Assembly: GCA_021775915.1 (NCBI GenBank)
Contig: JAJFGW010000018.1
Span: forward strand, 1 to 64,000
Direction of reading: 5' to 3'
Source of the DNA: Alphaproteobacteria bacterium
GTDB lineage: Bacteria > Pseudomonadota > Alphaproteobacteria > Micavibrionales > Micavibrionaceae
Length of the DNA stretch: 64,000 bases
In this document: piece after piece, positions 4,493 through 45,808 of the stretch
Position numbering within the stretch: position 1 is the first letter of the stretch
Layout: the number at the start of each line of letters is the position of its first letter
Position numbers and translations under genes: made by a program
Notes under the pieces: model-generated
What the model was told of the DNA's origin: nothing
Databases searched by the model: none
The model's input: the letters and a program-made list of their open reading frames with translations, nothing else

Positions 4493-5522
4493 CTACAGAG
4501 CCAGAGCCTGATTTTCGCGTAAAGTTATGACGCCCTTCTACATAGCGGATCGTGCCGGATTTTGAGCGCATAATGATGGAATGTGTAATGGCTGAACCGG
4601 CAGAGCGGCGCACACCGCGCAGCATCGTACCATCCGTAACGCCGGTAGCAGCAAACATAACGTTACCGGGTTTGGCCAGCTCATCTGTCGTGTAAATTTT
4701 AGAGCGGTCTTTAATCCCCCAACGATCAGCGCGCGCAATTTCATCATCATTGCGAAACACCAGCCGTCCCAGCATAGAACCGCCCGTACATTGCAGCGCC
4801 GCCGCCGCCAAAACGCCTTCCGGCGCGCCGCCCGTACCAACATACATATCAATATCAGTGTCCGGTTCAGTAGTCGCAATTACGGCACTAACATCGCCGT
4901 CCTGTATCAGATTAATACGCGCTCCAGCAGCACGCACAGCCTTCATGATCTCCTCATGACGCGGGCGATCAAGAATACACACCAGTAAATCCTCTACGCT
5001 CTCACCTTTGGCTTTCGCAATTTTTTGTAAAATGTCACCGAGCGGCGCATCAAGATCCAGAACATCACCAGGAATACTCGGCCCCACGGCCATCTTTTCC
5101 ATGTAAACATCCGGCGCATTCAAAAAGCCGCCTTTATCAGTCATCGCAATCACAGCCAAAGCATTATGACCTCCTTTTGCCGTGATTGTGGTCCCTTCCA
5201 GAGGGTCAAGCGCTATATCAATCTCCGGGCCACCGGCACCGACTTCTTCGCCGATATACAGCATCGGCGCTTCATCGCGCTCGCCTTCGCCAATTACAAC
5301 CGTGCCGCTGATTTGCAAACTGTTGAATGCTTCACGCATCGCGTCAACAGCCGCGCGGTCTGCTTCCTTTTCATCGCCGCGCCCCACCAAACGCGATGCC
5401 GCAAGCGCCGCCGCCTCGGTAACCCGCACAGCTTCTAAGGCTAAGTTACGATCCATAGAGAATTTTTCATCGTGTGGTGTGATATGTGTGTATTGTTCCT
5501 GCATACTTTGACCTGCTGACAT
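4485..5522 (-). CDS. glpX: Class II fructose-1,6-bisphosphatase
   Basis: GlpX hydrolyses fructose 1,6-bisphosphate to fructose 6-phosphate in gluconeogenesis. The protein is 345 residues, or ~323 if the internal ATG of MDRNLALEAV is used. It has the metal and substrate motifs GEGERDEAPM (residues 78-87) and DPLEGT (106-111), and the family-specific YVGTGGAPEGVLAAAAL and ATGVTDGTMLRGVRR segments. It sits between hom and recJ, overlapping recJ by 8 bp. The N-terminal 22 residues before MDRN are not typical of the family, so the true start may be the later ATG. A divergent small gene begins about 100 bp upstream. Confidence 0.95.
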   Translation of the reverse strand: MSAGQSMQEQYTHITPHDEKFSMDRNLALEAVRVTEAAALAASRLVGRGDEKEADRAAVDAMREAFNSLQISGTVVIGEGERDEAPMLYIGEEVGAGGPEIDIALDPLEGTTITAKGGHNALAVIAMTDKGGFLNAPDVYMEKMAVGPSIPGDVLDLDAPLGDILQKIAKAKGESVEDLLVCILDRPRHEEIMKAVRAAGARINLIQDGDVSAVIATTEPDTDIDMYVGTGGAPEGVLAAAALQCTGGSMLGRLVFRNDDEIARADRWGIKDRSKIYTTDELAKPGNVMFAATGVTDGTMLRGVRRSAGSAITHSIIMRSKSGTIRYVEGRHNFTRKSGSGSVDG

Positions 5523-5592
5523 TGCTCTGCCCCCCGTTTTGGTGAATTCGGCCTTAGCTTAAAGAGGAAAACACCTACATTCAATCACAGAT

Positions 5593-5622
5593 TTGACAAA
5601 ATACCCTCTTTTTCTTTATAAG
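5593..5622 (+). promoter_or_regulatory. Sigma-70-type promoter of a probably leaderless gene
   Basis: TTGACA lies at 5593-5598 and TATAAG at 5617-5622, with an 18-base spacer (TTATAA at 5616 with 17 bases is the alternative register). Only six bases separate the -10 box from the ATG at 5629, so the expected transcription start falls on the start codon itself. Confidence 0.65.
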
Positions 5623-5628
5623 TATTCT

Positions 5629-5916
5629 ATGAAAAGAACATTGAAACTTAGCGATGTCTTTAAAAAATATGCCGACATTCTGCTTGGAAAAGCCAAGTCC
5701 GGTCAGGCTTACGCCGTTCTTATTTCCGACTCTGACAAACAAAGAGCGCCCGAGTCATTTGCCACATACGAAGAAGCGAATAAAAAAGTTATCGCGCTTC
5801 ACGAAAAAAGCGTCGGCGCTGCTGTAGTCAAAACCGACCCTCACGCCGAAGATCTGAGCACCGGCTACAAACTCTATATCAGACCGGTTCGCGGTTACGA
5901 TACTTTTGGCTCTTAA
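5629..5916 (+). CDS. Small uncharacterised soluble protein
   Basis: 95 residues from ATG 5629. The frame can be extended to a TTG at 5593, but that TTG is the -35 box of the promoter, so the short form is preferred. The protein is Lys-rich and has no membrane segment or Cys. It has an alpha/beta look with YAVLISDSDKQRAPESFATYEEANKKVIALHEKSV in its middle, reminiscent of small proteins whose name-giving domain I cannot identify. There is no Shine-Dalgarno sequence in front of the ATG, as expected if the mRNA is leaderless. It is convergent with hom, with 9 bp between the stops. Function unknown. Confidence 0.65.
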   Translation: MKRTLKLSDVFKKYADILLGKAKSGQAYAVLISDSDKQRAPESFATYEEANKKVIALHEKSVGAAVVKTDPHAEDLSTGYKLYIRPVRGYDTFGS

Positions 5917-5925
5917 ACAAAAATT

Positions 5926-7218
5926 CTAAAAATTTTCAATCCGCAAAAGAGTGGGGTTTTTAACAACAAAATCCAGAGATTCTATTTTAGCAACGGCCTT
6001 ATGAATCTCCGCCTGCTTTGTGCTATGACTGGTAATCACAACAGAAGCCGAATTCTCAGGGTCACGCCCTCTTTGAAGCACGTCCTCCATAGACACATCA
6101 TGATCGCGCATAATCGCCGTAATCTCAGCAAGTACGCCTGGTTTGTCAATCACAGTCAAATGAATATAAAACCGGCTTTCCATCTCCCCCGGATCGCCTT
6201 TATTCGCATCAGCAAGCATAAGCGCCGGAATGCCAAAAGCCGGAACCTTATACCCTCGCGCGAGATCAATAATATCGGCAACAATCGCTGAGGCTGTAGG
6301 CCCCTCTCCTGCACCCCTGCCAATTTGCAATTCCGTGCCAACAAAGTCACCTTCAACAAAGACCGCGTTAAACACCCCTTCCACAGCCCCCATTGTGCTG
6401 GATTCTGACACCAGGCAAGGCTCAACCATCTGTATAATAGTGCCGTCTATCTGCCTGGAAATCCCCAATAATTTAATCCTGTATCCAAGCTCTTGCGCAT
6501 AAGAAATATCAGCGGCGGTAATGTGGCTAATTCCCTGCGCTTTCAGGGTCTGAAAGTCAGGTTTAACACCAAAGGCCAAACTACTTAAAAGACAGAGCTT
6601 GTGAGCAGAATCTATGCCCTCAATATCAAATTCCGGATCAGCCTCGGCATAGCCCTTATCTTGCGCTTCTTTTAAAACGTCAGAAAAGGGTCTTCCCGTT
6701 TCACGCATCTCCGTCAAAATATAATTACACGTGCCGTTCAGAATACCATAAACGGCCTCAATCTCGTTCGCGGCAAAGCCTTCGCGCAATGACTTAATGA
6801 TGGGTATCCCGCCGGCCACCGCCGCTTCATACATAAGAGACACATTGTTTTCTTCCGCAAGAACAGCGAGGTCATAGCCGTGATGGGCGAGCAGCGCCTT
6901 GTTCGCCGTAACAAAAGAAATGCCATTATCAAGAGCATTACGCGCCAGCTCAAGTGCATCGCCCTCTTCGCCACCAATAAGCTCTACAACCGCGTCCAGA
7001 TCATCTCTACCTGCCAGTGAAGCGGCCTTGTCTAACCACTCATAACGAGAAAGATCAACGCCTCTGTCTTTGGATTTATCACGAGCAGACACAGCAACAA
7101 TTTCCACAGAGCACCCGGCCCGGCCACTAATCATAGTCTGATGAGTTTGAAGAATTTTAATGACACCGGCGCCAACTGTCCCCAGACCGGCAATGCCTAT
7201 ACGAAAACTGTCTACCAC
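5926..7218 (-). CDS. hom: Homoserine dehydrogenase
   Basis: The enzyme reduces aspartate semialdehyde to homoserine with NAD(P)H, the branch point to threonine and methionine. The 430-residue protein has the Rossmann GLGTVG at residues 11-16, the catalytic-domain signature NGTCNYILTEM, and AEADPEFDIEGIDSAHKL, which carries the substrate-binding Glu and Asp residues. A C-terminal ACT domain (about 350-425, starting FYIHLTVIDKPGVLAEI) is expected to give feedback control by threonine. It starts 12 bp after the stop of an OmpA-type lipoprotein on the same strand and lies upstream of glpX and recJ. Confidence 0.95.
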   Translation of the reverse strand: MVDSFRIGIAGLGTVGAGVIKILQTHQTMISGRAGCSVEIVAVSARDKSKDRGVDLSRYEWLDKAASLAGRDDLDAVVELIGGEEGDALELARNALDNGISFVTANKALLAHHGYDLAVLAEENNVSLMYEAAVAGGIPIIKSLREGFAANEIEAVYGILNGTCNYILTEMRETGRPFSDVLKEAQDKGYAEADPEFDIEGIDSAHKLCLLSSLAFGVKPDFQTLKAQGISHITAADISYAQELGYRIKLLGISRQIDGTIIQMVEPCLVSESSTMGAVEGVFNAVFVEGDFVGTELQIGRGAGEGPTASAIVADIIDLARGYKVPAFGIPALMLADANKGDPGEMESRFYIHLTVIDKPGVLAEITAIMRDHDVSMEDVLQRGRDPENSASVVITSHSTKQAEIHKAVAKIESLDFVVKNPTLLRIENF

Positions 7219-7230
7219 AACAAGAACAAC

Positions 7231-8157
7231 CTAGTAATAACGGGCCAAGGGCGGCACAGGAGCCACCGGCGCGTCTAACGGCACAGGCATAACGCTATGA
7301 GGAGGAGGCGCATAAATATTGGTCACAGACACAGGAGGCTGCGGATTTAACGCTGTATAAATTTCAACACGGCGGCTGGCCGCTTCCTGATCCACCCCAG
7401 CAAGCGCTGCGGCCGGTCTTGTTGCCCCGTAAGCTTTGGTTTCAATGGAACCTGCCGGAACACCGCTACGGATCAACTTACTTGAAACTTTAAATGCCCG
7501 GTCCATCGACATTTTTAAATTAACAATACTGCGCTCCACCGGATCATGAATTTCCGCACGCTGGCTGGCATGGCCTTCCACCGAAATTTTTCCACCTTTG
7601 CTACCAATAAAATTAGCAACCTGCTCGCCCGTAGTATTCAGACTAGATGAGCCGTGGCTATAATAAATCCGCGACATAGCTGCACCTGGTGATTGAAGCG
7701 GCTGAAGCAGCTCAAGCGGCGCGACCACCGGTACATAAGAAGAAGAGCTACTACGCTCAGGCATTTGCATAGGCGTTTGTATTGGCCCGCCAAAAGGAGA
7801 CTCCAACGGCCTGAACTTCTCCGATGGTGGTACCAAAGTAGGTCTCTGTGCTTGCGTTTGCGACTGCTGCACACTCCCGCCATCATCAAATGGATAAACG
7901 GTCACATTCGGATCAACAGATGAGGGCACGCCACCATCCTGATAAACGGGGGAATATAAAGCAGAAGGCGTAACCGGATCATCCAAACCGTATATCTGCA
8001 CACTCCCGTTTGACATCTCCCGTGCCATCTCCGGGTATGTCATGGCAATATCCGCATCATAATAAACGACCTCACGAGGGCCATCTTCACCTGTGGAACA
8101 GCCGGATATAAACAGGCAACTTACAGCAGCAAGTACAATTTTTTTCAATGAAGGCAA
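7231..8157 (-). CDS. OmpA-domain outer-membrane lipoprotein
   Basis: About 308 residues if started at the TTG at 8157, which has a GGGAG Shine-Dalgarno 8 bases upstream; other in-frame TTG codons lie at 8184 and 8148 and no ATG is available. The N-terminus is a signal peptide ending in the lipobox FISGC, so it should be lipidated at Cys 20. A low-complexity Pro/Ser/Gln-rich middle region follows. An OmpA/Pal-type peptidoglycan-binding domain then contains ISVEGHAS and KAYGATRPA ... SRRVEIYTAL. The last ~35 residues are again Pro-rich. It probably tethers the outer membrane to peptidoglycan. The gene precedes hom by 12 bp. Confidence 0.8.
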   Translation of the reverse strand: MPSLKKIVLAAVSCLFISGCSTGEDGPREVVYYDADIAMTYPEMAREMSNGSVQIYGLDDPVTPSALYSPVYQDGGVPSSVDPNVTVYPFDDGGSVQQSQTQAQRPTLVPPSEKFRPLESPFGGPIQTPMQMPERSSSSSYVPVVAPLELLQPLQSPGAAMSRIYYSHGSSSLNTTGEQVANFIGSKGGKISVEGHASQRAEIHDPVERSIVNLKMSMDRAFKVSSKLIRSGVPAGSIETKAYGATRPAAALAGVDQEAASRRVEIYTALNPQPPVSVTNIYAPPPHSVMPVPLDAPVAPVPPLARYY

Positions 8158-8323
8158 GGAAATAGCTCCCGCTTGAGACAACAAGTAAAACTGACCTTCA
8201 TCGTGGCCTAATTATCCGTAATTTTCAAGCCGTTCATCATAAAAAATCAAAAGCCCATAACCAGATTGCTATTTTATTCAAAATATGGCAGATTTTAAGG
8301 CCTTTTGAGCTATGGAGCCCGCT

Positions 8324-10159
8324 ATGAAAAACTCATCGTCTAAGAAACAAAAACCACCTAATGAGTCTTCTGGCCATGACGCCAGATTAACCGACCCGGT
8401 TGCACTGGGAAATATCCTCATTAATGTAACAGAACGGGCGCAACCTTTACTCAAAGAGTTCTTTGAAAAATACGAATTTGATCTGGATGAAGCGGCGCTT
8501 GACCCGTTGCATACTCGTGAAGCTTATATGGAGTTTCTACAACATCTTTGGTCTGACCCTCAAAAACTAGCGGCCATGCAAATGGAGTATTGGCAAGATG
8601 CCATGAGTCTATGGCAGGAAAGCAGCGTCCGCTTTATGGGAGGGGAAAGCAAAGAGCTGTTCACTCCTGAAAAAGGAGACCGCCGCTTTAAAGCAGATTC
8701 CTGGCAAGACAGCGCTGTCTTTGACTTTATCAAGCAATCCTACCTTCTAACCAGCCGCTGGATGGAGCACGTTGTAGAAGAGACGGAAGGGCTTGATGAC
8801 GAAACAAAAAAGAAAGTGAATTTTTCAACACAGCAATTTGCAAATGCCATGGCGCCCGGTAACTTTCTCATGACAAACCCTGAAGTCCTTCAGGAAACAC
8901 TGGATACCGGCGGCGAAAACTTGCTGCGCGGTTTAGAAAACCTGATTGAAGATTTCGAGCGCGGCGGTGGTCAACTGCGGATCAGTACCACTGACTATGA
9001 TGCCTTTGAAGTTGGTGAAAATCTCGCCACAACGCCAGGAAAAGTTGTCTACCAAAATGATTTAATGCAACTAATCCAGTATGAGGCGACGACTAAAAAA
9101 ACGTTTAAACGCCCGCTTCTGATTGTACCGCCATGGATCAATAAATTTTATATTCTGGATCTGCGCCCTGATAACTCCTTCATCAAGTGGCTGGTTGAAC
9201 AGGGGCATACTGTCTTTACCATTTCATGGGTCAACCCGGATCGCAAACTAACCAAAAAACGCTTTGAAGACTATATGGAAGAAGGCGTTTTTGATGCGCT
9301 GAAACAGGTCAAGAAGATCACTGGCGAGCCAGACACAAACATGATCGGCTATTGCCTCGGCGGCACGCTTTTGGCTATCACACTGGCCTGGCTGGCGACA
9401 AAGAAGAAGGACTCCCATATAGCCTCTGTGACCTTTCTAACATCACTGATTGATTTTGAAGAAGCCGGCGACATGCTGCTTTTCACGGATGATGCGCAAA
9501 TTGAAACACTGAACAAACAAATGAAGGAGCAAGGGTTTCTCGATGCTGACCATATGCGTAAAACATTCTCGCTGCTGCGCGCCAATGACATGATCTGGTC
9601 TTTTGTGATCAATAATTATCTGATGGGGAAAGAGCCATTCCCCTTCGACCTGCTTTACTGGAACGACGACGCCACGAACATGCCCGCCGCTATGCATGAT
9701 TTTTACCTGCGCAAGCTCTATCGCGACAATTTGCTAGTCAAACCGGGCGGTGTGAGCATGAACGGCGAGAAGCTTGATATCACCAAAGTCAAAACACCCT
9801 GCTATTTCCTATCGACAAAAGAAGACCATATAGCGCCGTGGCAGGCCACATACGCCGGAGCGCAGCTTTTAGAAAAGGGAAACACCACCTTCACCCTCGC
9901 CGCTTCCGGTCACGTTGCCGGTGTCGTCAACCCGCCGGATAAAAACAAATACTGCTACTGGGCGTCAGATAAAATACAGGAAACACCGGACAAATGGTTT
10001 GAGAGTGCCCAAAGCCATGACGGCTCATGGTGGCCTCACTGGCAGAAATGGGTCAAAGACTATGCCGGAGAAAAAGTTCCCGCCCGTAAAATTGGCGGTG
10101 GCAAACTCGAACCCATCGAAGATGCCCCCGGCTCATACGTTAAAATGAAGGCGGATTAA
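8324..10159 (+). CDS. phaC: Class I poly(3-hydroxyalkanoate) synthase
   Basis: PhaC polymerises (R)-3-hydroxyacyl-CoA into polyhydroxyalkanoate granules. The protein is ~611 residues from ATG 8324, preferred because GGAG lies 6 bases upstream; an ATG at 8312 is the alternative. It has the N-terminal PhaC domain and an alpha/beta-hydrolase domain with the lipase-like box GYCLGG. The catalytic triad is visible as Cys 344 in that box, Asp 501 in KEDHIAPW and His 530 in SGHVAGVVNPP, with the spacing usual for the class. The subunit length and lack of a phaE or phaR partner fit class I. The thiolase and reductase genes lie at the other end of the window. Confidence 0.95.
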   Translation: MKNSSSKKQKPPNESSGHDARLTDPVALGNILINVTERAQPLLKEFFEKYEFDLDEAALDPLHTREAYMEFLQHLWSDPQKLAAMQMEYWQDAMSLWQESSVRFMGGESKELFTPEKGDRRFKADSWQDSAVFDFIKQSYLLTSRWMEHVVEETEGLDDETKKKVNFSTQQFANAMAPGNFLMTNPEVLQETLDTGGENLLRGLENLIEDFERGGGQLRISTTDYDAFEVGENLATTPGKVVYQNDLMQLIQYEATTKKTFKRPLLIVPPWINKFYILDLRPDNSFIKWLVEQGHTVFTISWVNPDRKLTKKRFEDYMEEGVFDALKQVKKITGEPDTNMIGYCLGGTLLAITLAWLATKKKDSHIASVTFLTSLIDFEEAGDMLLFTDDAQIETLNKQMKEQGFLDADHMRKTFSLLRANDMIWSFVINNYLMGKEPFPFDLLYWNDDATNMPAAMHDFYLRKLYRDNLLVKPGGVSMNGEKLDITKVKTPCYFLSTKEDHIAPWQATYAGAQLLEKGNTTFTLAASGHVAGVVNPPDKNKYCYWASDKIQETPDKWFESAQSHDGSWWPHWQKWVKDYAGEKVPARKIGGGKLEPIEDAPGSYVKMKAD

Positions 10160-10178
10160 GCGTTCAGCAAAAGGAATT

Positions 10179-10814
10179 CTATTTTCGTAAAACATTTCCA
10201 ACTATTTTGGACTTAAATAAGTCTTCCGGCACATCAAATTGATGCGCTTCCCACCCAGCAGCAAGGGCTCCATCAACAACACTTTGGTTATCATCAAACA
10301 GAATGATTTTCTCCCCTTTCTGCCGACAAAGAAGCCCTTCAACTCTTTCATAGAACTTTCTGTCAGGCTTCATATAACCGACACGAGCCGAATTAAAAAT
10401 GTCTTGAAAATAACGACTAAAACCCACTTCCTCCATGAGATATTGAGCACGAACATTTTCCTGATTAGTTGCTATAAATAATGAAACATCCGGTAATTTA
10501 GATAGTTTTTCAACATACGGAATTAACTCTGTATTTATGTTGGAATCTTTTTTCATCCAGTAATCTATTAGTAACTGCGGGTCATCACTATGACCAATAC
10601 TTGGCAAAACTTCCTGCAATGCTGAATATAAATCACGCTTTCCTGTCAAAACCTCTGCCTCAAAAACTCCTCGAATAAAATGCTTTGTAAAATCAGAACG
10701 AGAGATAAAAAAATCTTCTTCCAGGTTTTCATCCCAGCATTTTCTAAACTCCGGCTTGGCGTGATAACCGTGCATAAGAACACCATCCACATCAAACAGA
10801 ACAATGGTCATCAT
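10179..10814 (-). CDS. HAD-superfamily hydrolase
   Basis: 211 residues with the four haloacid-dehalogenase motifs: FDVDGV at the N-terminus (nucleophile Asp 8, acid Asp 10), ATNQE (motif II), KPDRKFYERV (motif III Lys) and ILFDDNQSVVDGA (motif IV acidic pair). The helical cap between motifs I and II fits subfamily IA. A phosphatase is likely; the substrate cannot be read from sequence. A strong Shine-Dalgarno (AAGGAG) precedes the start. It overlaps the carbonic-anhydrase-like gene upstream by 23 bp, so the two are probably cotranscribed. Confidence 0.8.
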   Translation of the reverse strand: MMTIVLFDVDGVLMHGYHAKPEFRKCWDENLEEDFFISRSDFTKHFIRGVFEAEVLTGKRDLYSALQEVLPSIGHSDDPQLLIDYWMKKDSNINTELIPYVEKLSKLPDVSLFIATNQENVRAQYLMEEVGFSRYFQDIFNSARVGYMKPDRKFYERVEGLLCRQKGEKIILFDDNQSVVDGALAAGWEAHQFDVPEDLFKSKIVGNVLRK

Positions 10815-11322
10815 TATACTCCTTAGCCAGTTTCACATAGTGCGCAGAAGACCACACCATATACTCACGGTCTTTATCGCTAATCTCGCGCATATATTTC
10901 GCAGGGCTTCCGCCCCAAAGTTGCCCTGAAGGCACCACTTTCCCCGGCGTAACCAAGGCTCCGGCAGCGACCATCGCGCCACTTTCCACGACAGCGCCAT
11001 CCATGACACAGGCCTTCATCCCGACAAAAGCCCCATCCTCAATCGTGCAGGCATGCAGCAGCGCCATATGACCAACCGTAACGTCATTACCAACAATCGT
11101 GGGGTGTCCGAACGAGGAAACATGGATCATACTGTGGTCCTGAATATTAGTGCGCGCGCCAATCCTAATTTTATCGACATCACCACGTAACGTGCAGCCG
11201 AACCAGATACTACTATCCTCTCCAACCTCAACATCGCCTGCAATAACCGCACTTTCAGCAATAAAAGCTGTACTGGCAATCGCCGGGCTTTTCTCTTTAT
11301 AAGGTAGGATCAATCTACTCAT
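10792..11322 (-). CDS. Gamma-class carbonic anhydrase family protein
   Basis: 176 residues forming a left-handed beta helix of hexapeptide repeats. The metal-binding histidines expected of gamma carbonic anhydrases are present in DHSMIHV and in VGHMALLHAC. The C-terminal helix starts after GSPAKYMREIS. Proteins of this YrdA/PaaY-like group are zinc or iron trimers; some hydrate CO2 and others have no known substrate. It lies between rpsI and the HAD hydrolase. Confidence 0.85.
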   Translation of the reverse strand: MSRLILPYKEKSPAIASTAFIAESAVIAGDVEVGEDSSIWFGCTLRGDVDKIRIGARTNIQDHSMIHVSSFGHPTIVGNDVTVGHMALLHACTIEDGAFVGMKACVMDGAVVESGAMVAAGALVTPGKVVPSGQLWGGSPAKYMREISDKDREYMVWSSAHYVKLAKEYNDDHCSV

Positions 11323-11336
11323 AGCGCACTATAGAC

Positions 11337-11367
11337 AAAAGGCGCTCCGTAAACCAGAGCGCCTTTT
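11337..11367. terminator. Bidirectional Rho-independent terminator
   Basis: A 7-bp GC-rich stem (GGCGCTC at 11341-11347 with GAGCGCC at 11357-11363) has a 9-base loop. It is flanked by AAAA on the left and TTTT on the right. It lies just past the rpsI stop and would end rplM-rpsI transcription on the minus strand. Confidence 0.85.
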
Positions 11368-11390
11368 CGAAAACATATAGAAGATAAAGC

Positions 11391-12068
11391 TTAACGCTTT
11401 GCCCACTGTTTGGAACGACGGGCCTTGTGCTTACCGATTTTCTTACGCTCAACCGTACGCGCATCACGTGTCAGCATCCCGGCTTTTTTCAGAGCCGGGC
11501 GAAGTTCCGGATCAAAATTTTCCAAAGCCCGTGAAATACCATGACGCACAGCACCAGCTTGACCGGATAAACCACCGCCCTTAACCGTACACATAACATC
11601 AAAGTGACCCACTTTATCAGAAATCAAGAACGGCTGATTTAAGATCAGGCGTTGTGTTTGGCGCGCAAAATAAATCGTTTGATCTCTGCCATTCACAATA
11701 ACAGCACCCTTACCCGGCTTAAGCCAAACACGAGCGACAGCATCTTTACGTCTGCCTGTTGCATAAGAACGACCCAGCTTATCAAGCTTAGGTTCGCGTT
11801 TCTTTTCTTCTGCAACTTCTTCTGAGATCACTTCTTTAGCCTTGGGAGCTTCGGACGTTACAGCGTCTTTAAGATCCTTCAGATCTTTAATCGGCGCGTC
11901 TTTAACTGCAGCTTTAGGAGCTTTTGTCTTTTTGACTTCCACTTCAACAGGCTTTTTAGCTTTTGCCGGCGCTTTTTTAGCGGCGGCCTTCTTGGCAGGC
12001 GCTTTCTTTTCTTTTTTAGCGTCTACTTTGGCGTCTTCAGCTTTTGCGTCATCATCTTTTTTAGCCAT
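11391..12068 (-). CDS. rpsI: 30S ribosomal protein S9 (uS9) with long basic N-terminal extension
   Basis: The C-terminal ~130 residues are a normal uS9: [21 protein letters not shown] near the start of the core, [23 protein letters not shown], and the basic tail [17 protein letters not shown] that reaches the P-site tRNA. The first ~95 residues are an extra Lys/Ala/Pro-rich segment ([20 protein letters not shown] and similar), resembling histone H1 tails. It is followed by an acidic stretch, [15 protein letters not shown]. Typical uS9 is ~130-160 residues, so 225 is long. It follows rplM by 5 bp, the standard operon. Confidence 0.95.
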
Positions 12069-43270: not shown

Positions 43271-43909
43271 ATGATCCCCGCAAAAGCTTTCTACCTGATC
43301 CGTCACGGCGAAACCGAAGCCAATGCCAGCCACATCACAGCGGGCGGAGAACTTGATACACCACTAACCAGAGCAGGACAGCAGCAAGCCAGAAATATAG
43401 CGCAGGTTATTCACCAACTTGAAATCAAGGCCTCAAAAATCATTCACAGCCCAATGAGTCGCGCCAAAGATACGGCAGACCTCATTAATGATGCGCTAAA
43501 ATTAGCCATGCACAAAGTCGACGATTTCCGCGAACATATAGTCGGTGAATGGGAGGGGAAACCATGGGAAGAGGTCAGACCACATTTAGAAGCCAATGTC
43601 CGCCCAGTAGGTGGTGAAAACAAAGATGATTTCGGACGTAGAGTGAAACAGGTCTTAACCAACACTCTTGAAACACATAATGACCCGGTAATGATTGTAG
43701 CGCATGGCGGTATTTTTTATTCTATCCTGCACCTTTACGAACAGCCCTTTGACCACAATATCCAAAACTGCCACCTCCACTATTTTGAACCTTGCAACGA
43801 CCACGGCGCTTTTCCGTGGCGAGTCTGGCAATTTGATATTGAGGACGATAATCTGGTTAAAAGCCCCGCGCCATTCTGCAGTACGCACTACACAGACAAA
43901 ACAGACTAA
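43271..43909 (+). CDS. Histidine phosphatase family protein (phosphoglycerate-mutase-like)
   Basis: 212 residues from the ATG at 43271; a TTG at 43253 is an upstream alternative. Branch-1 histidine phosphatase motifs: YLIRHGETEAN with the phosphorylated His, SPMSRAKDTADLI, EHIVGEWEGKPWEEV with the acid, and VAHGGIFYSIL with the second His. The substrate is not evident. It is divergent from recO and convergent with the next gene (4-bp overlap). Confidence 0.85.
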   Translation: MIPAKAFYLIRHGETEANASHITAGGELDTPLTRAGQQQARNIAQVIHQLEIKASKIIHSPMSRAKDTADLINDALKLAMHKVDDFREHIVGEWEGKPWEEVRPHLEANVRPVGGENKDDFGRRVKQVLTNTLETHNDPVMIVAHGGIFYSILHLYEQPFDHNIQNCHLHYFEPCNDHGAFPWRVWQFDIEDDNLVKSPAPFCSTHYTDKTD

Positions 43910-44754
43910 GGCTTAAGGGTATTTATACCGGGATCCATTTGAGAAAAAGCATTGTATTTTGCCTGACTATCCACCCCCGGCGCGGTACTTTCCATTTGCG
44001 TTATGCCGCTTGCACTGGCATTGAACTGATCGCTAACTCCCTCACCCCTAAATACTGTCATTGTTATTTCCGAAGCGCCATTCGAACGATAAGAGCTTTC
44101 TATTTCTATGCCCGTTGTCTTGTTAAGATCAGAAGACGATGCCACCGCTACCCTGTCACCATCATGACGTACCTCATATTCACCTCCACGACTTTCTACG
44201 CCGCCAACAGCCAGATCACGTCCAGAACTTTTCTCAAACGCAGCAATCAATGACGGCGAACCTGATACAGAACCCGCAATATCGGCAAACTGTTTTACCA
44301 GACTGCTATAAGCGCCCTGCTCATCATTAGCCGTCGTGTCCCACCCCCTCCCCTGTTCCATCTGAGAAGTAATAGAACCATCGGGATCAATCGTTACATT
44401 CTCGGTAAAAACATAAGTTCGCGGATTTCTGCCCTGCACAAAAGCCACGTAATGTATGCTACCGCTATTGGGGTCATTAGGGTCTTGCTCCGCCAGCGCG
44501 ACTGTCGCCGCATTAATTGTCTGATTAAGCGCAACACTGTCCACGTCTACCGAGGAAAGGTTTTTTGCAACGGACAAAGCATAAGCCTTGTTATGATCTG
44601 TCATGCCATGAGCAAAACCCGGGTTCTGCTTTAAAGACTCTGCGTCAAAATGCGGTCCGTATTGATAACTGTTTTGTTGTACAAAATCATCAAAGCCGCT
44701 GTAGCCGGTTGTAATACTGCCGCTAGTTTCTGCTGATATTGTTGATTTTCCCAT
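43906..44754 (-). CDS. Uncharacterised Ser/Thr/Gly-rich protein
   Basis: About 282 residues from the ATG at 44754 (MGKSTISAETSGSITTGYSG); the open frame continues to 44799 but overlaps the promoter region. The protein is polar and acidic, without signal peptide, membrane segment or Cys. It has many Asp/Asn turns, for example LAEQDPNDPNSGSIHYVAF, NVTIDPDGSITSQMEQGRGWD and VESRGGEYEVRHDGDRVAV. No family recognised. The composition recalls secreted or structural proteins, but there is no visible export signal. Confidence 0.55.
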   Translation of the reverse strand: MGKSTISAETSGSITTGYSGFDDFVQQNSYQYGPHFDAESLKQNPGFAHGMTDHNKAYALSVAKNLSSVDVDSVALNQTINAATVALAEQDPNDPNSGSIHYVAFVQGRNPRTYVFTENVTIDPDGSITSQMEQGRGWDTTANDEQGAYSSLVKQFADIAGSVSGSPSLIAAFEKSSGRDLAVGGVESRGGEYEVRHDGDRVAVASSSDLNKTTGIEIESSYRSNGASEITMTVFRGEGVSDQFNASASGITQMESTAPGVDSQAKYNAFSQMDPGINTLKP

Positions 44755-44792
44755 AAACACATCATAGAGAAATATGGTTAATAAATTGCCTA

Positions 44793-44821
44793 TTGACACT
44801 ATAGGAATGCCGTCCTATAAT
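44793..44821 (+). promoter_or_regulatory. Perfect-consensus sigma-70 promoter with an inverted repeat in its spacer
   Basis: TTGACA at 44793-44798 and TATAAT at 44816-44821 are both exact consensus with the optimal 17-base spacer. TATAGGA (44800-44806) and TCCTATA (44813-44819) form a perfect 7+6+7 inverted repeat that fills the spacer and enters the -10 box. The promoter points right, into an interval with no annotated gene, toward the 3' end of folP. Confidence 0.8.
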
Positions 44822-44827
44822 AAGACA

Positions 44828-44990
44828 TAAACTCCCGAAACTACGTTATCATTTCGAACGGCATGTGAGAAATCTCAATCCACAGGCATGAGATCCCTCA
44901 TATTTATTCGGGATAACAACAGAGACAGGGAGGACGAGAGAATAAAAAAAGTGACGAACAAACTGAATAACCACTTATTTAAAAGCTAAA
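44828..44990 (+). ncRNA. Candidate small RNA or short-ORF transcript
   Basis: The interval after the consensus promoter can fold. TCCCGAA at 44833-44839 pairs with TTCGGGA at 44907-44913, and inside it lies a hairpin of TGAG-ATCTCA (44866-44877) with TGAGAT-CTCA (44889-44900), with an 11-base loop and a symmetric internal loop. No clear terminator with a T-tract is visible on this strand, so the 3' end is uncertain. No RNA family recognised. Confidence 0.35.
44888..44989 (+). CDS. Possible 33-residue basic/acidic small protein
   Basis: An ATG at 44888 opens a 33-codon frame to TAA at 44987, starting MRSLIFIRDNN and rich in Arg, Asp, Glu, Lys and Asn. The ribosome-binding site is poor (ACAGG, 1-2 bases from ideal), and the ATG is buried in the predicted hairpin. 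It is listed because it lies 60 bp downstream of a perfect promoter; it may be chance. Confidence 0.2.
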   Translation: MRSLIFIRDNNRDREDERIKKVTNKLNNHLFKS

Positions 44991-44998
44991 ACAAAGCG

Positions 44999-45808
44999 TT
45001 ACAAATTATTTATCGCCTCAAAAACAGCAAAGGCCTGCTTTGTTTCGGCTAGATCATGAACACGGAAAATGTCCACACCCTGTTGCAAGCCCCAAAGCGC
45101 CGCTGCTAGTGACCCCGGCAAACGCTTGTCCGTCGCCGCATCAGAGCATATTTTTTCGATGAAGCTCTTGCGGGACGCCCCTAAAAGCACGGGAACGCCT
45201 AATGATTTAAACGTAGCTATGTTCTTTAAAAGAGCGAGATTATGCTCCAAAGTCTTACCAAAACCAATACCGGGATCAATGATGATCCGATTCTTTGGAA
45301 TCCCGGCGTCAAGGCAGACTTTAATGCGCCCAGCCAGAAAAGCGCTAATATCGGCAACAACATCGTTATAATCTGGATTTTGCTGCATCGTTTGCGGCTG
45401 CCCCTGCATATGCATCAGACATACCGGCAAATTGCTGCGCGCCACAACAGACAAGCTCTCTGGGTCACCTTGCAGCGCGGTAATATCGTTAATCATGGAG
45501 GCCCCGGCCTGCGCAGTCGCGCGCATAGTTTCAGCATGCCTTGTATCAACGGAAAGCATCGCGCCGCTGTTTTTTAGCCCTTCAATAACGGGAAGCACGC
45601 GATCCATTTCCTGCTGCGGCGAAACAGAGGCAGCGCCCGGACGTGTTGATTCACCCCCAATATCAAGGATGTCAGCACCTTGCTCTATTAATTTAAGTCC
45701 GTGATCTATGGCCTTGCCGGCCTCGCTAAACTGTCCGCCGTCAGAAAAACTATCAGGAGTCACATTGATGACCCCCATAATATACGGCCCTTTGCTAAAC
45801 ATACTCAC
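44999..45808 (-). CDS. folP: Dihydropteroate synthase
   Basis: 269 residues. FolP joins p-aminobenzoate to dihydropterin pyrophosphate; it is the sulfonamide target. Motifs: MGVINVTPDSFSDGGQF at the N-terminus, ILDIGGESTRPGA, MINDITAL, CLMHMQGQP, and IIIDPGIGFGKTLEHN. The C-terminus has FRVHDLAETKQAF. It overlaps folK by 14 bp. Confidence 0.96.
   Translation of the reverse strand: MSMFSKGPYIMGVINVTPDSFSDGGQFSEAGKAIDHGLKLIEQGADILDIGGESTRPGAASVSPQQEMDRVLPVIEGLKNSGAMLSVDTRHAETMRATAQAGASMINDITALQGDPESLSVVARSNLPVCLMHMQGQPQTMQQNPDYNDVVADISAFLAGRIKVCLDAGIPKNRIIIDPGIGFGKTLEHNLALLKNIATFKSLGVPVLLGASRKSFIEKICSDAATDKRLPGSLAAALWGLQQGVDIFRVHDLAETKQAFAVFEAINNL

Follow-up and report, generated by a model that had tools for sequence, protein, structure and literature searches.

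A consensus promoter with an internal operator in a Micavibrionaceae genome is probably a stray member of a RogA-like repressor circuit

A promoter with perfect sigma-70 hexamers and an inverted repeat in its spacer lies at positions 44793 to 44821 of a 64,000-nucleotide stretch (here called the window) of contig JAJFGW010000018.1 from a Micavibrionaceae bacterium (assembly GCA_021775915.1). The repeat is probably the operator of a RogA-like repressor, by which this very strong promoter would be kept shut. Because the same operator precedes a phage-type capsid gene and a probable phage-type repressor gene, the copy at 44793 is probably a stray member of this switch and of the promoter-operator family that carries it. 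Sequence comparison established the promoter and the operator, the fixed register of the two, the family, the occurrence of the operator ahead of the regulator gene, and the linkage. An isolated promoter has in this way become evidence for a RogA-like circuit in a deep alphaproteobacterial order that includes Micavibrio and is represented here mainly by metagenome-assembled genomes. The circuit is directly testable, since candidates for the repressor, the operator, and the target genes can be named. If the reading is true, it explains why most perfect-consensus promoters of the window's taxonomic family contain the operator. The dispersal of the operator, before the capsid gene and on small multicopy units, bears on the silencing of phage-derived particles. 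The features in the window are listed below.

43909 to 44754, minus strand: gene for a 282-amino-acid (aa) protein, divergent from the promoter, within a 1.09-kb stretch between a phosphatase gene and folP
44793 to 44798, plus strand: -35 hexamer TTGACA, exact consensus
44800 to 44819, no strand: inverted repeat TATAGGA-N6-TCCTATA, with arms at 44800-44806 and 44813-44819
44802 to 44806 and 44813 to 44817, no strand: conserved operator core TAGGA-N6-TCCTA, defined by the family consensus; the exact core also precedes the regulator and capsid genes
44816 to 44821, plus strand: -10 hexamer TATAAT, into which the right arm of the inverted repeat extends
44827 to 44839, plus strand: predicted transcript start and first bases ATAAACTCCCGAA, resembling the leader block of the capsid gene
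44845 to 44917, no strand: imperfect palindromic repeat (GTTATC...GATAAC) forming a stable hairpin; partial arms were computed and the rest was read by eye
44944 to 44970, plus strand: remnant of the C-terminal end of ORF1 (KKSDEQTE, stop), with the same junction as in the intact unit on contig C4 and in other copies in the genome
44951 to 45002, plus strand: remnant of the ORF2 N terminus (VTNKLN..., stopped), similar as far as ..AAAACAAAGCGTTAC and overlapping the stop codon of folP

The preliminary description of this site reported exact TTGACA and TATAAT hexamers at the ideal spacing, with a 7+7 inverted repeat between them. All 12 hexamer bases indeed agree with the sigma-70 consensus, the spacer is 17 bp long, and TATAGGA-N6-TCCTATA is present letter for letter, with its right arm reaching over the -10 hexamer. 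Five sigma-70-like sites lie between 43500 and 46500, a number not above that in shuffled sequences (mean, 4.0), and the 44793 site is the only one among them with 12 of 12 bases. The 7+7 form holds for the window, whereas the family keeps a 5+5 core, TAGGA-N6-TCCTA (TAGGA-ATGCCG-TCCTA in the window), and conserves the outer pairs weakly: across 48 family sites, position 10 is T in 34, position 9 is A in 26, and position 8 is T in 18. A search for the repeat elsewhere in the genome, which had been suggested, recovered the exact core at four places in total (none in the reversed control). Base composition predicts about 2.5 such places, so the count by itself says little and is hardly above chance. 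Unlike their number, the identity of the places appears telling, with a regulator gene and a capsid gene beside the operator: they are the 44793 site, C12:5306 before the regulator gene, C12:9871 before the capsid gene, and C41:12525. At C41:12525 (positions 1501 to 1516 of locus L228), the operator is downstream of a small XRE-like ORF and close to where a 456-aa membrane-protein-like ORF begins.

For comparison, 38 genomes of the order were used, including the window genome. The 2.45-Mb window genome contains five perfect TTGACA-N17-TATAAT promoters (one in the reversed control), four of which share a spacer of the form AGGAAT/ATGAAT...(T)TCC. The combined pattern TTGACANNNNAKGAATNNNTTCCTATAAT, with up to three mismatches, was found at 7 places in this genome and in 21 of the 38 genomes, and the reversed control gave none in all 38. 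The six richest genomes have 7 to 24 matches each, a count that may score one palindromic place twice. When perfect promoters were searched for without the spacer as bait, the 38 genomes yielded 64, and the reversed pattern 12. The window's taxonomic family accounts for 43 of the 64; AGGA-N6-TCC stands in the fixed register in 35 of these, 26 with all 7 bases and 9 with 6. None of the 21 perfect promoters in other families of the order has the operator, with at most 3 of the 7 bases present. This order-wide family and the linked regulator described below lend good support to the view that an internal operator would hold such a strong promoter under repression.

When 84,980 species genomes were scanned for exact matches, 76 stretches were retrieved, of which 49 have an alphaproteobacterial or Micavibrio label and 27 are spread over other groups; one 282-base stretch (L056) was left out, and 48 alphaproteobacterial sites were analyzed. 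An ATG begins 4 to 7 bases after the -10 hexamer in 33 of the 48 (exactly 6 bases in 24) versus 2 of the 26 other sites, and a C precedes TTGACA in 38 of 48 versus 4 of 26, although some of the alphaproteobacterial sites are related copies within one genome and therefore not all are independent. The frequent ATG at the expected transcript start argues for genuine promoters whose mRNAs are almost without a leader. The 27 stretches from elsewhere (26 distinct sites, none with an ATG at offset 6) look like chance or unrelated promoters. Many family sites have unrelated housekeeping genes as neighbors, without a constant orientation, and the family is therefore not a classical regulon. Family promoters were also considered as drivers of tRNA or known RNA genes, a role that was rejected, with no tRNA and no Rfam match in loci L001 to L005.

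The capsid gene (PF19821) is present in 24 of the 38 genomes, once per genome except for one split gene (G027); L194, which holds the second part of the gene split at L191, was not counted. All capsid gene starts were placed by tblastn. In 16 of the 24 loci, which is 16 of the 22 with a full upstream stretch, the 450 nt before the gene contain a promoter-operator scoring at least 15 of 20; the reversed control reached 14 at most. The remaining eight have no site scoring 15, which counts against the proposed circuit; two of these are short of upstream DNA (203 nt are available at L186 and none at L192). In many loci the leader after the capsid promoter resembles ATCAACGCCCGAA, often with a terminator-like hairpin as read by eye. 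The capsid gene of the window genome lies on contig C12 among genes for a T7-type head-tail connector, a scaffold-like protein, a PilZ protein, and a tail protein. As judged from its genes, this T7-type cluster is possibly a domesticated podovirus-type or gene-transfer-agent-like element. It occupies positions 5378 to 12036 of locus L195, with the PilZ gene between the scaffold and capsid genes; the capsid loci of the order are L170 to L193.

The regulator gene is present as a single copy in 29 of the 38 genomes. The 300 nt ahead of this gene contain an operator with at least 9 of 10 bases in 25 of the 28 loci that were parsed (L222 was left out), compared with about 1% for single-base shuffles. 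Three of these operators match at 10 of 10, including that of the window genome, and most others have TATGA or TGGGA in place of TAGGA. In the window genome, the operator before the regulator gene sits in a weaker promoter. Among the 21 genomes with both the capsid and the regulator genes, the two lie 4.75 to 5.8 kb apart on one contig in 13, 79 kb apart in one, and on different contigs in 7. Sites matching TTGACANNNNAKGAATNNNTTCCTATAAT co-occur with the regulator: in genomes at least 90% complete, they were found in 19 of 27 with the regulator versus 0 of 5 without it (Fisher P = 0.006), and in all 38 genomes in 19 of 29 versus 2 of 9 (P = 0.028), both being raw genome counts that include kin. 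Some genomes count against this association. No regulator was found in G018 (84% complete), which has 16 matches at 15 places, or in G033 (64% complete), which also has sites, and ten genomes with the regulator have no site at three mismatches.

Twelve regulator relatives of 203 to 226 aa have an N-terminal helix-turn-helix (HTH)-like part and an S24-like part, and S24 was confirmed by Pfam in all four relatives tested (PF00717, E value of 9.8e-26 in L217). Of 29 regulators, 26 were aligned (L196, L197, and L222 were left out; L196 is the window genome's own regulator locus and was read separately), and these comprise 15 S24-like or shortened proteins, 7 with PyrE, and 4 with HTH only. The regulator of the window genome has 133 aa, no Pfam hit, and no S24 core, with only an S24-resembling end remaining, which makes its activity uncertain. 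In loci L203, L204, L206, L209, L210, L214, and L223, the HTH and an orotate phosphoribosyltransferase (PyrE) share a single open frame, as indicated by NF001729 in two of them (318 and 326 bits) and by alignment in the other five. This fusion is possibly a repressor that senses the pyrimidine or PRPP state.

Occlusion of a promoter by a repressor of the lambda CI or LexA type is a general mechanism. The system proposed here shares with that type an HTH and S24 repressor, an operator between -35 and -10, and an operator upstream of the repressor gene; it differs in operator sequence and in that the repressor of the window genome is without an S24 core. The promoter-operator recurs, in the same fixed register, in three settings: before the capsid gene, before a two-gene unit whose ORF1 usually begins at the transcript start, and in stray copies. 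The candidate RogA-like (LexA/CI-like) regulator would bind as a dimer on one face of the DNA, with half-sites 10 to 11 bp apart, and would cover the spacer and the -10 hexamer so that RNA polymerase is excluded. Through the operator before its own gene, the repressor may limit its own synthesis, and its loss or inactivation would allow the promoters to fire.

The closest likeness considered is RogA of Caulobacter crescentus. RogA is reported to be a 213-aa LexA-like repressor with an HTH and an S24-like domain lacking the catalytic residues; it silences gene transfer agent production by binding the gafYZ core promoter, which contains two inverted repeats, GGAA-N4-TTCC. It was enriched at no more than two promoters and exerts its effect through gafYZ (PMC9632790). 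The Caulobacter particle cluster is also reported to need anti-termination past terminators (PMC11150451). The domain plan and the length of about 213 aa match those of the full-length regulator relatives of the order, the RogA operator contains a GGA-N6-TCC dyad with spacing identical to that of the window core, and the position in a core promoter and the phage-like setting agree. The published GGAA-N4-TTCC is complete in other family members, such as those of L001 and L005, and is matched at 7 of 8 bases in the window (GGAA-TGCC-GTCC, with GTCC for TTCC). In contrast to the RogA operator, the operator here is scattered through the genomes and directly precedes both a T7-type capsid gene and the gene for the regulator, whose HTH in some genomes is joined to orotate phosphoribosyltransferase or stands alone. 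By analogy, the window operator may work like a RogA operator, the claim being likeness and not orthology. A literature search, mostly at the level of abstract openings, found no paper on this operator family in relatives of Micavibrio.

The two-gene unit consists of ORF1, often leaderless, and ORF2, and is found at L001 (763-1493), L035, L037, L045, L068, and L146 to L169. ORF2 has the pattern W-x2-ERR...KPWxxSTGPxTxxGKxxSxxNAxKHG. Neither ORF matched a Pfam or NCBIfam family above the cut-off, and PHROGs gave one weak match, of ORF2 to a family without an annotated function. Relatives of ORF2 were found in five plasmids and in no phages. A protein profile located ORF2 at 24 places in 15 of 55 genomes; a site scoring at least 15 lies upstream in 14 of the 24 (0 of 24 in the reversed control), or in 12 of 22 when L146 and L147, profile seeds taken from promoter hits, are both excluded. 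One ORF2 locus, L166, has only 34 nt upstream. AlphaFold models of both ORFs are helical, with low pTM values (0.52 for ORF1 and 0.40 for ORF2).

The frequent presence of the promoter before this unit (14 of 24 places) and the basic-rich, predicted helical character of ORF2 raise the alternative that the operator belongs to another regulator, for example, the protein of ORF1 or ORF2 acting on its own promoter or an SOS repressor of the LexA type, with the RogA-like gene as a mere co-target. Phage genes and antitoxin-like genes near the sites would fit an SOS-type regulon. However, the ORF2 profile found nothing in four genomes that have sites (G004, G010, G015, and G024), the regulator gene is very regularly preceded by the operator (25 of 28 loci), and the alphaproteobacterial LexA box, GTTC-N7-GTTC, differs in sequence from TAGGA-N6-TCCTA. 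We consider this alternative unlikely and prefer control by the RogA-like repressor.

Stray copies in the window genome consist of the promoter, sometimes decayed, followed 60 to 130 nt on by a short module that corresponds to the ORF1 end and ORF2 start in the intact unit of contig C4. Mobile units are generally known to leave MITE-like or decayed non-autonomous copies. Likewise, several truncated copies of the two-gene unit keep the left part, with the promoter, and a similar right limit (..AAAACAAagNgTTAC), although no transposase was seen in the unit.

The window copy looks stranded in the same way. As the preliminary description had stated, its promoter points right into 177 bp (44822-44998) ahead of the stop codon of the convergent folP, a dihydropteroate synthase gene (TIGR01496, 333 bits). 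The predicted first bases, ATAAACTCCCGAA, resemble the capsid leader block ATCAACGCCCGAA at 11 of 13 bases, a level that random window 30-mers reach in 0.05%; the block was picked after the likeness had been noticed, and 82 sites were scored. Farther on, the ORF1-end/ORF2-start module (44944-45002) has its best matches in other remnants (E values of 9e-7 and 2e-5) and a short, weak match to the intact two-gene unit (25 nt, E value of 0.076). No dedicated product was found in the interval, which holds the two-gene-unit remnants and the palindromic repeat. The copy thus appears to have no gene of its own, with unit remnants, a capsid-like leader, and a surrounding stretch that is missing from two congeners. 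A CAAACRAACT motif considered as a second regulatory element was rejected and corresponds to the ORF1-end/ORF2-start junction. The palindromic repeats at 44845-44917 of the window and at 1600-1648 of L001 can be read as protein-like strings (VIPNKYEGSH... and SLRGGVKRRRGNP), and such repeats are nested in several copies of the two-gene unit.

The fold of this interval bears on a second alternative, namely, that a strong promoter free of repression drives a small or antisense RNA directed toward folP and that the inverted repeat is incidental. The consensus is perfect, the promoter is aimed at the 3' end of folP, and the 172-nt region from 44827 to 44998 is more stably folded than 199 of 200 shuffled sequences (z = -3.84). 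The fold derives mainly from the palindromic repeat, however, a related sequence of which occurs elsewhere in the window genome (contig C45). No Rfam match was found for it, the window having only a distant tRNA-Pro, and the interval has no terminator-like site on the plus strand. In addition, the locus is not conserved in congeners, and the inverted repeat is kept in the same register in 35 of the 43 perfect promoters of the taxonomic family. This alternative is very doubtful. Under the preferred reading of a RogA-like operator, the window copy, if derepressed, would yield a structured non-coding RNA that runs in the direction of the folP 3' end and is probably antisense to it.

Conservation in relatives had been proposed as a test of the site; the motif is conserved as a family, but not at this locus, with no site around folP in any of the three congeners (about 3.8 kb each). 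In congeners G003 and G002, which have the same gene neighborhood, the phosphatase gene, recognized by its sequence, runs straight into folP, and in G001 folP lies in another setting. The 1,089-bp stretch from 43910 to 44998, with the orphan 282-aa gene and the promoter, is therefore either an insertion in the window genome or a loss in the two congeners that are without it. The intact promoter can be explained by recent arrival and need not mean selection at the locus.

The comparison with orthologues of the gene at 43906 that the preliminary description proposed found none to compare: the 282-aa gene has no relative at an E value of 0.001 in the 37 other genomes, no NCBIfam match, and only subthreshold Pfam matches. 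A tie between the promoter-operator and this gene was rejected, the gene being without relatives in the order. That the operator serves this divergent gene (start at 44754), with the left arm as a TATAGT -10-like box on the minus strand, is highly improbable: the arm lies about 40 bp ahead of the start codon and the minus-strand site has 8 of 8 operator bases, but its hexamers match at only 7 of 12, and family promoters point the other way, toward genes or leaders.

Beyond control by the RogA-like repressor itself, the dispersed promoter-operators, strays included, might form a distributed phage-type switch. Decoy operators would titrate the repressor and fire together at its failure, the number of strays would set the induction threshold of a domesticated T7-type head cluster, and the HTH-PyrE fusion of some genomes would sense pyrimidine or PRPP. 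We regard this extension as speculative and rather unlikely.

Two further observations concern the surroundings of family-like promoters. Solitary genes resembling Phd/YefM antitoxins adjoin a family promoter in L012, L017, L033, and L089; three of the four begin at most 8 bases from the -10 hexamer, and the two that were scanned are both below the Pfam cut-off. In five viral contigs (L116, L117, L118, L120, and L121), a common promoter (TTGACAAGTGAGGACCCGTGTCCTATAAT and relatives) with similar flanks has the same layout of -35 hexamer, AGGA-N6-TCC, and -10 hexamer; these promoters apparently represent an unrelated phage group.
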